DNA of 64,000 bases from Olsenella profusa F0195 (lineage in GTDB: Bacteria > Actinomycetota > Coriobacteriia > Coriobacteriales > Atopobiaceae), in NCBI RefSeq assembly GCF_000468755.1, contig NZ_AWEZ01000050.1:1-64000 (forward strand). Direction: 5' to 3'. Each line of letters begins with the position of its first letter. Positions within the stretch are counted from its first letter, which is position 1. A model generated the notes under the pieces. The model did not search any database and was not told the DNA's origin. It saw only the letters and a program-made list of their open reading frames with translations. Of the stretch, positions 33,048 to 35,412 are shown one piece after another. The translations under genes and the position numbers were made by a program.

Positions 33048-34013
33048 CTACGCAAACATGTTGCGTTCCATGAACTCTGCCTGTACCGTGCGGAACATGA
33101 GGTCGACGTCCTCGAGGCCCAGATGGGTCTCCTGCTGGTTGGCATCCAGGGTGCCGCGGCGGCGCGCCCAGCTCTCCAAGGCGGCAGGGCGCGAGTCGCG
33201 GGGGAGCATGCGGTACTCAGGGTCGATGCGCCGGCAGATGTCGCGTGTGTCTATGGGCACGATCTTGCCGGCCTTGCGTGCCTCGGCGTAGCCGTCGATG
33301 GTGAGTATGAACCATGAGTCCTCGAATGCGGCATTGTGTGCCATGAACGGATAGGTCTCAAGCGTGGTCAGGAGGGCCCGCTGCATCTTCCCATTGGAGC
33401 GCAGGGGCTTCTTGTCGGCAATGTCATCCCAGGTGATGTGGTGCACAAACGAGAGGGGGATGCCCGTCTTCCTGTACATCTCGGGAATGCCGCAGTAGGC
33501 GCTGAAGGGGTGCTCGGGCCTTGCCCGTGCCGAGAGCTCCATGAACTCCAGGCCGACATTGAGCACATAGCCGCGGCCGGGGTCGCGCTCGGTCGTCTCG
33601 ATGTCGATGCCGCACACCATGCCCGAAACGGGAGCCTCCACATAGGCGATGCCCAAGTCCACACAGTTGGGGCCTGCCGTCTTGGCCACCTCGTCCTCGC
33701 TGCGGTGCTGCATCCGTGCAACGGCACGAATGAGGTCCTCGTCCGAGAGGCGTTTGGAGAGCATGGCAGGGGAGACGTTGCGCAGGCGATCGATGCCGTA
33801 GCTGTCACAGGCGGTGCGGTTGCGATCGGCAAGGCCTCTCACGAGGTCATACGAGAAGGGCTCCTGCCCGAGTGGCGCTTCCCACCAGGCGGCCGAGAGA
33901 AGCTCCATGGCCTCCTCGTTGCGCTCGCGCTCGGCCGTGAGCGTGGCGTCATCCGCCACGAATCCTGGAAAGACGAAAGCGCTCGCATGCTCCAGTGCCT
34001 GACTCAGGTTCAT
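33048..34013 (-). CDS. DEDDh-type 3'-5' exonuclease with N-terminal extension
   Basis: A ~321-residue protein. The second half is an exonuclease domain of the DnaQ/RNase T type: GIDIETTERDPGRGYVLNVG gives the first acids, YPFMAHNAAFEDSWFILTI the second, and THLGLEDVDLM the His and last Asp. The first ~130 residues (ELLSAAWWEAPLGQEPFSYDLVRGLADRNR, LSKRLSDEDLIRAVARM) are a helical extension I do not recognise. Two starts are possible, 34019 and 34013; GGGGG fits the second better. It may trim DNA or RNA ends; it has no polymerase partner here. Confidence 0.82.
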   Translation of the reverse strand: MNLSQALEHASAFVFPGFVADDATLTAERERNEEAMELLSAAWWEAPLGQEPFSYDLVRGLADRNRTACDSYGIDRLRNVSPAMLSKRLSDEDLIRAVARMQHRSEDEVAKTAGPNCVDLGIAYVEAPVSGMVCGIDIETTERDPGRGYVLNVGLEFMELSARARPEHPFSAYCGIPEMYRKTGIPLSFVHHITWDDIADKKPLRSNGKMQRALLTTLETYPFMAHNAAFEDSWFILTIDGYAEARKAGKIVPIDTRDICRRIDPEYRMLPRDSRPAALESWARRRGTLDANQQETHLGLEDVDLMFRTVQAEFMERNMFA

Positions 34014-34097
34014 ATGCATCCCCCGTCGTTCGAAGACCCGCCAATCACATCAAGTGTAGCCTGTGCGACAGGGAAGCGCTTGGCAAGTGGACGCCCC

Positions 34098-34937
34098 TTA
34101 GGCACTCAGGGCCTGGGGGGCCTCCTGTGGGTTCCAGAGACTGCCCGTGAGCGCCTTCCGTGCCTCGAGGAGCGCCTCGCAGAACACGTTGCCATGCGGC
34201 ACGCTTGCGCGCACGAGCCGGCCATTGCGATAGGCAAGGAGCCGGTAGCGCGGAACCGGCTTCCACAGGGCCTTCTCATCGTCGGTGCCCAGGGGTGTGG
34301 TGGCAAAGAGGAGCGTGTCATCCTTGGGCTGGAAGCAGTAGAGCGTCGTGCTCGATGTGTTGGTGTGCACGTAGGTATAGCTGCCGTCGTCCAAGACGAG
34401 GTTAAGCTTGTTGAGGTTTCCCAGCTGTGTGATGGAGCCTGCCAAAGCCGAGAAGGTCTGGTCAAAGCCCAGGTTGCCACCTGCGCGCAGCACGGCCTCG
34501 TTGATGATGTCCATCAGGAACAACGACATGCGCTCGGAATCCGTCTGGCCGGCCGTGCGCTCCTCATATCCCCAGAGCATGCCCTCATTGAACAGGATGC
34601 CATTGTGGATGAGCGTCCAGTCGCGCCCCATGATGTCCGTCTGCAGGAAGGGGTGGCAGTTGGGCTCGGAAAGGGCTCCGCAGGTGGCATTGCGGATGTG
34701 CGCCTGCATATGGCGCGCCACGATGGGCTCTCTGAGCAGTGTGGGAAGCAGGGACGATGCGTATGCGGGAACGGGCTCGCGCCAGAGCCGCACGTTGTCC
34801 TGTGAGGCGGGGACGGCGTCGTCACGATAGGTGAGGCCCCATCCATGGGGATGCTGGCGGCTGTGGGTGTAGAACTCAGCGAGATAGGGGCTGGCATTTA
34901 TGGGTGAGGCCGCATTGACGGCAAACAGCTCGCACAT
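34098..34937 (-). CDS. Class II glutamine amidotransferase
   Basis: A 279-residue Ntn-hydrolase that would free ammonia from glutamine. The start MCELFAVNAASP puts the nucleophile Cys at position 2, exposed after Met removal. Other family residues are HPHGWGLTYRDD, AHIRNATCGALSEPNCHPF and WTLIHNGIL. AAGGA lies 7 bases before the ATG at 34937. No synthase domain is attached, as in the EgtC/YafJ group. A Cys-rich ORF (34876-35025) overlaps its start in another frame. The gene is divergent from cysK, so a link to sulfur metabolites is possible but unproven. Confidence 0.87.
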   Translation of the reverse strand: MCELFAVNAASPINASPYLAEFYTHSRQHPHGWGLTYRDDAVPASQDNVRLWREPVPAYASSLLPTLLREPIVARHMQAHIRNATCGALSEPNCHPFLQTDIMGRDWTLIHNGILFNEGMLWGYEERTAGQTDSERMSLFLMDIINEAVLRAGGNLGFDQTFSALAGSITQLGNLNKLNLVLDDGSYTYVHTNTSSTTLYCFQPKDDTLLFATTPLGTDDEKALWKPVPRYRLLAYRNGRLVRASVPHGNVFCEALLEARKALTGSLWNPQEAPQALSA

Positions 34938-35025
34938 GAGAGGAATCCTTCTTGGACGGTACGTACGGACGGTGGTGGATGGCTGACAGGCAACACGTGC
35001 AACAGATACGGCGGTGCATGCCCAT
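34876..35025 (-). CDS. Short Cys-rich leader ORF overlapping the amidotransferase start
   Basis: A 49-codon frame, MGMHRRICCTCCLSAI..., with GGGAGGAG six bases before its ATG at 35025. It has four Cys codons within five positions and three more later. It overlaps the first ~62 bases of the amidotransferase gene in another frame. Polycysteine leader ORFs that sense Cys supply by ribosome stalling are known from other actinobacteria. Here the reading frame runs into the gene it would control, so coupling or interference of translation is the likely mode. Not proven to be translated. Confidence 0.5.
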   Translation of the reverse strand: MGMHRRICCTCCLSAIHHRPYVPSKKDSSHVRAVCRQCGLTHKCQPLSR

Positions 35026-35180
35026 GACCGTCTCCTCCCGTATGCATTCGGCATTCCTGCTCAGTGTACCCCATGCGTCAGGATATGCCGTTACGTCTTT
35101 GTTGCGCCGCATCGACGTTTCCTATCACAGGCGTACGCATATGACTATACCCCTGCGACGAGTAATTCCTACCATTTTGC

Positions 35181-35209
35181 TTGACATTGCAGGGGTCGGG
35201 TCATAGATT
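35181..35209 (+). promoter_or_regulatory. Promoter of the cysK leader
   Basis: TTGACA (35181-35186) and TAGATT (35204-35209) are separated by exactly 17 bases. Transcription would start near 35216, giving a leader of about 260 bases before cysK. Confidence 0.75.
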
Positions 35210-35253
35210 GTCTTCCAGGAGCATAGGACATCGATCGACAAGGGGAGAGGAGC

Positions 35254-35340
35254 ATGCCCGTGCGTCAGTGCATCGCACCATGTTGTTGTACGCCCGCGCT
35301 CCCTTCGCCGTGTCGCACGGATGTTCGTAGCATACGCTAG
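35254..35340 (+). CDS. Cysteine leader peptide of cysK
   Basis: A 28-residue peptide, MPVRQCIAPCCCTPALPSPC..., read from ATG 35254 after the strong site GGGGAGAGGAG. It has five Cys, three as consecutive TGT codons (35281-35289). It lies between the promoter and a perfect terminator upstream of cysK. The bases just behind the TGT run (35296-35306, GCGCTCCCTTC) can pair with 35385-35395 (GAACGGGACGC), which includes the 5' arm of the terminator. That is the layout of a ribosome-mediated attenuator: stalling at Cys codons would free the antiterminator. The translation and the mechanism are inferred. Confidence 0.7.
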   Translation: MPVRQCIAPCCCTPALPSPCRTDVRSIR

Positions 35341-35388: not shown

Positions 35389-35412
35389 GGGACGCCGTAG
35401 CGTCCCTTTTTT
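35389..35412 (+). terminator. Attenuator terminator in the cysK leader
   Basis: GGGACGC (35389-35395), loop CGTA, GCGTCCC (35400-35406), then six T. It is a perfect rho-independent terminator 66 bases before the cysK start. Its 5' arm has an alternative partner in the leader ORF (35296-35306), so it is probably conditional. Confidence 0.85.

Follow-up and report, generated by a model that had tools for sequence, protein, structure and literature searches.

The window analysed here is a 64,000-nucleotide stretch of the 2.72 Mb genome of Olsenella profusa F0195, a member of the Atopobiaceae. It carries two divergently oriented genes, cysK on the plus strand and a class II glutamine amidotransferase gene on the minus strand, and a short Cys-rich open reading frame (ORF) lies at the start of each (Table 1). 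The plus-strand ORF reads MPVRQCIAPCCCTPALPSPCRTDVRSIR up to its stop codon, and an intrinsic terminator separates it from cysK. The minus-strand ORF, which reads MGMHRRICCTCCLSAIHHRPYVPSKKDSSHVRAVCRQCGLTHKCQPLSR up to its stop codon, shares 62 nt with the beginning of the amidotransferase gene (ATG at 34937). The original prediction had described the latter as a Cys-rich ORF with a strong ribosome binding site running into the amidotransferase, and the frame, its GGGAGGAG site and the overlap are all confirmed. In addition, the GGGAGGA of this Shine-Dalgarno site is complementary, with one G-U pair, to the UCCUCUC immediately before the amidotransferase ATG.

Table 1. Features of the region between and including the amidotransferase and cysK genes
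Feature	Position	Strand	Remarks
Class II glutamine amidotransferase, 279 aa	34098..34937	-	GATase_4, PF13230; EgtC/YafJ-like
Leader ORF of amidotransferase	34876..35025	-	Start MGMHRRICCTCC...; equivalents in 5 other species
Amidotransferase binding site region	34938..34950	-	AAGGA at 34950-34946, then UUCCUCUC
Cys run TGT TGC ACG TGT TGC	34990..35004	-	First codon 67 nt 5' of amidotransferase start
Shine-Dalgarno site of minus-strand leader ORF	35032..35039	-	GGGAGGAG, 6 nt upstream of ATG
Promoter-like site TTGACA-17-TAGATT, 5' of cysK leader	35181..35209	+	Consensus match only
Leader ORF of cysK	35254..35340	+	Start MPVRQCIAPCCC...; CCC codons at 35281-35289
Intrinsic terminator, between leader and cysK	35389..35412	+	GGGACGC-CGTA-GCGTCCC TTTTTT
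cysK, cysteine synthase A, 303 aa	35478..36389	+	TIGR01139 above cut-off

A poly-Cys leader followed by an intrinsic terminator precedes cysK in every case among the window genome (G000) and G039, G038, G040 and G036 (g19), which span four species and two genera; the same scan returned a terminator-like site in 6 of the 45 remaining cysK upstream regions. When a ribosome was modelled on the G000 leader, the terminator probability was near zero with the ribosome at codons 3-7, 0.24 at codon 9, 0.59 at the first CCC codon and near 1 beyond the run, these values depending on the footprint assumed. For cysK, the arrangement reads most naturally as a classical attenuator, in which ribosomes slowed at the Cys codons would let the leader RNA refold so that the terminator is not formed, and transcription would then run through into cysK. 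The modelled G000 leader agrees with this in part, and the leaders of G038, G040 and G036 do not behave uniformly.

Poly-Cys leaders are also frequent in genus g35, where they occur in 14 of the 15 cysK upstream regions looked at and fall into two or more peptide types, including MANIFRCCCTCAVPG and M..MCCQMCCHNAWLSPARRA; an intrinsic terminator is missing from both g35 leader regions scanned. The Cys codons of these leaders differ synonymously (TGC TGT TGT, TGC TGT TGC or TGT TGT TGC) and the residues stay constant, a pattern indicative of selection at the level of the peptide residue. A -10-like TAGGAT, read by eye, ends about 7 nt 5' of the ATG in some of them, so that some g35 cysK leaders may be leaderless, as in mycobacteria. 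Several g35 upstream regions (L169, L167 and L255-L257) carry TTGACA together with the inverted repeat ATCCTA..TAGGAT, possibly belonging to a leaderless transcript or an operator.

The amidotransferase leader recurs in relatives as well. With a leader defined as a frame that opens with a Shine-Dalgarno site and ATG and has three or more Cys in five codons, no more than 170 nt upstream of the gene, poly-Cys leaders were found at 7 of the family's 50 amidotransferase orthologues, against 0.087 expected from dinucleotide shuffles. Once a same-species copy is removed, the seven genes represent six species in four genera. Their peptides, such as MARLAMCCRCTHAFVY (O. porci), MSIATNRMCCCRAFC, MAFVHTCCCPCSRASR, MQFAMISSDTCCCRMCERAYVL and MTCTCCSRASRRD... 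(Parafannyhessea umbonata), have the Cys run alone in common. The core common to these leaders spans their first 12-16 codons; the overlap with the gene comes from a tail peculiar to the window species. The Cys run begins 61-67 nt 5' of the amidotransferase in five of the six species, a clustering with P about 0.0008 under a uniform model; in the sixth, P. umbonata, it lies at -105.

The distribution of the amidotransferase leader is patchy. On the amidotransferase tree it requires at least six changes, all inside one supported clade of 24 sequences. None of the family orthologues in the Tractidigestivibacter group (g34), g30 or g35 has it, and no poly-Cys leader was found at amidotransferase homologues from other families of the order. 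The comparison of the Cys run across homologous loci, proposed with the original prediction, came out divided: the run recurs in six species, but it is absent from the same-genus relatives G038 and G041, which keep the gene, an outcome that the prediction itself had named as counting against it. In G041 (L004 / L119), tandem repeats of about 30 nt (gagacaatggggacggagctctttgtctct) occupy the leader site just upstream of the amidotransferase, and in G055 (L024 / L125) the position at which the sister P. umbonata genome G054 has the leader, just upstream of the amidotransferase, holds the end of a transposase-like gene. Judging from these arrangements, some of the absences look like losses by insertion. 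On the cysK side, the run is kept in the four species named above and in the g35 genomes. The recurrence of poly-Cys leaders at both genes with diverged peptides, together with the synonymous changes in the g35 Cys codons, supports the earlier suggestion that both genes answer to cysteine supply, a response that we infer from these patterns.

The two leaders appear to differ in their mechanism. No intrinsic terminator was found on the minus strand between the amidotransferase leader and the gene, and the leader RNA is predicted to be no more stable than shuffled sequences. In folding predictions of the free RNA, the amidotransferase binding site is paired, with the leader start region as its partner; masking this region opened the site in most leader species, with a mean gain of 3.2 kcal/mol vs 0.5 in the rest (p 0.009 in a post hoc comparison uncorrected for kinship). 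A ribosome modelled as stalled at the Cys run opened the amidotransferase binding site in two of the six leader species. Translational control of the amidotransferase is favoured, with no single structure named because the stall modelling is mixed.

We consider it likely, on balance, that both short ORFs serve as leader peptides sensing charged tRNA-Cys, that the cysK leader acts through its terminator and the amidotransferase leader through a terminator-less, translational route, and that the amidotransferase is a gamma-glutamyl hydrolase. The ribosome binding site of the amidotransferase would be held in structure by the start region of its own leader, and, when cysteine is short, ribosomes held at the Cys run would leave this site open. 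Alternatively, in the window species, leader ribosomes that read through may run over the amidotransferase start and binding site. In either case, reasoning by analogy, more of the amidotransferase would presumably be made in cysteine shortage, and the enzyme would return cysteine from stores of the gamma-glutamyl-cysteine type.

The opposite direction of control would result if the amidotransferase leader were a device for translational coupling or reinitiation, in which translation of the leader feeds or blocks the gene and is slowed by the Cys codons, so that the enzyme level falls when cysteine is short. The leader stop lies 22-40 nt 5' of the gene in the five other leader-bearing species, the two frames overlap in the window, and the binding site of the amidotransferase is either weak or, by prediction, paired, all of which would suit such coupling. 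However, simple coupling needs no fixed distance of the Cys run, and the adjoining cysK has an attenuator of the terminator type, a kind that usually increases expression under shortage. We regard this alternative as unlikely, although it is the best of those considered.

Somewhat less probable still is control of the amidotransferase by Rho-dependent transcription termination. This was proposed for the Mycobacterium cys leaders that have no terminator (PMC1262725), the nearest known leaders, and it would agree with the lack of a detectable intrinsic terminator on the minus strand, but the stretch from leader to gene is short.

The Cys run on the minus strand might instead be a chance ORF in a GC-rich intergenic region, without any role, leaving the cysK leader alone as real. 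The original prediction held that two Cys-rich ORFs within 330 bases were unlikely to arise by chance, and the window gives this argument modest backing. The CCxCC codon pattern occurs twice, against 0.13 expected, and 3 of 100 shuffles reach two; TGYTGYTGY (CCC) occurs 6 times against 5.0 expected, that is, without enrichment. Furthermore, five other places in the window combine a Shine-Dalgarno site, an ATG and at least three Cys in five codons, one of them inside a coding gene. With statistics this modest, the window by itself is weak evidence, and the decision falls to the orthologues. There, the absence of the leader from G038 and G041 would fit a chance origin, whereas the recurrence far above expectation and the near-constant spacing of the Cys run to the gene make such an origin improbable. 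That the ORF encodes a functional micropeptide, binding metal or thiols through its dense Cys pairs (CCxCC), is the least probable reading by a wide margin, as the 15-26 residue peptides of the relatives share nothing other than the Cys run and the leader peptides are found directly upstream of the amidotransferase.

Poly-Cys leader peptides are already known in actinobacteria, from the cys operons of Mycobacterium and P. acnes and from cbs of B. longum (Seliverstov et al. 2005, PMC1262725). Those leaders resemble ours in being short ORFs with a Cys run upstream of a cysteine-metabolism gene, and, like the amidotransferase leader, they have no obvious terminator. In contrast, the present leaders belong to the Atopobiaceae, one of them has the amidotransferase as its target, and the cysK leader has an intrinsic terminator; these three features are new. 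Cysteine attenuation is thereby extended to the Atopobiaceae, in a terminator-based form that is missing from the earlier actinobacterial examples. A second parallel is found in mycobacteria, where leaderless poly-Cys ORFs ahead of cysteine genes are reported to be cysteine-responsive (Canestrari et al. 2020, as cited in PMC13236596). Some g35 leaders look leaderless too, whereas both leaders of the window have Shine-Dalgarno sites. Our literature search found no paper on Olsenella leaders.

We also searched up to nine related genomes for Shine-Dalgarno-ATG-Cys-run patterns, in a narrow form that required GGRG and either CCC or CCxC. Matches were numerous, yet no more so than in a backwards control. 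The in-frame matches that were fetched, other than the cysK and amidotransferase leaders, overlap coding frames, and no third gene under a poly-Cys leader was thus found with these patterns in these genomes. A comparison with Rfam gave a single microRNA match, far under threshold.

The amidotransferase itself belongs to the stand-alone YafJ/EgtC-like class II enzymes, for most of which we know of no substrate. C2, R82, N112-G113 and D133 are invariant in an alignment of 11 sequences; from what is known of the GlmS family, we take Cys2 to be the nucleophile and Arg82, Asn112-Gly113 and Asp133 to complete the class II active site and glutamine site. The AlphaFold model (pLDDT 85.5) has its best structural match in EgtC (4zfj, 4zfk, 4zfl; Z 24.6, 2.3 Å over 209 residues), the gamma-glutamyl hydrolase of ergothioneine synthesis, which hydrolyses a gamma-glutamyl amide and has the same stand-alone class II amidotransferase fold. 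Sequence identity to EgtC is 22%, and the YafJ-like structure 1te5, the closest one other than EgtC and named only as a predicted amidotransferase, ties with it (Z 24.2). Membership of the ergothioneine pathway was considered and is unlikely, because EgtD (PF10017) was not found in the window genome. The same search did not find EgtD in G039, G040, G048, G049, G054, G061 or G128, and gave a marginal partial match in G042.

Gene neighbourhoods are informative about a possible substrate. Genomes G000, G039, G040, G048 and G049 carry a glutamate-cysteine ligase-like gene (PF04107), which was not found in G042 and G054, two species with the amidotransferase leader. The gene that comes after the amidotransferase on the same strand in G061 encodes a 787-residue protein combining glutamate-cysteine ligase and serine acetyltransferase (TIGR01172) parts. 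Glutamate-cysteine ligase is the convergent neighbour of the amidotransferase in G128 and G124, and a similar long ligase protein is encoded after cysK in G068 and G069 (L265:1902-4166 and L266); the scan for the acetyltransferase part covered the G061 protein only. In the G061 fusion locus (L263:2612-4975), directly after the amidotransferase, the acetyltransferase (CysE) part is C-terminal. These neighbourhoods tie the amidotransferase to gamma-glutamyl-cysteine chemistry, but they do so in genera without the amidotransferase leader. Together with the EgtC-like fold, the neighbouring ligase in some relatives lends support to the earlier idea that the amidotransferase acts in thiol or gamma-glutamyl metabolism.

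A comparable activity may be that of Dug3, a component of the yeast glutathione degradation complex that is needed for the use of glutathione as sole sulfur source (PMC12653102), and which is alike by description, being a glutamine amidotransferase-like protein with a gamma-glutamyl thiol as its substrate. We put forward, as a tentative proposal with somewhat less than even prospects, that the stand-alone YafJ/EgtC-like amidotransferase of the Atopobiaceae is a cysteine-starvation gene, a bacterial counterpart of the yeast Dug route that would free cysteine from gamma-glutamyl-cysteine-type stores and be controlled jointly with cysK by poly-Cys leaders, through a terminator at one gene and through translation at the other. 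The main value of the locus would lie in this lead to the substrate of an uncharacterised enzyme, since the putative cysteine-sensing leader, taken with the glutamate-cysteine ligase and serine acetyltransferase that adjoin the gene in relatives, gives one branch of amidotransferases a testable substrate class.

Just downstream of the amidotransferase, the window holds a further minus-strand gene (33048-34019), which encodes a 323-aa protein beginning MHMNLSQALEHASAFVFPGF... and gave no Pfam or NCBIfam match. Proteins similar to its product are encoded near the amidotransferase or cysK in G041 and G036.
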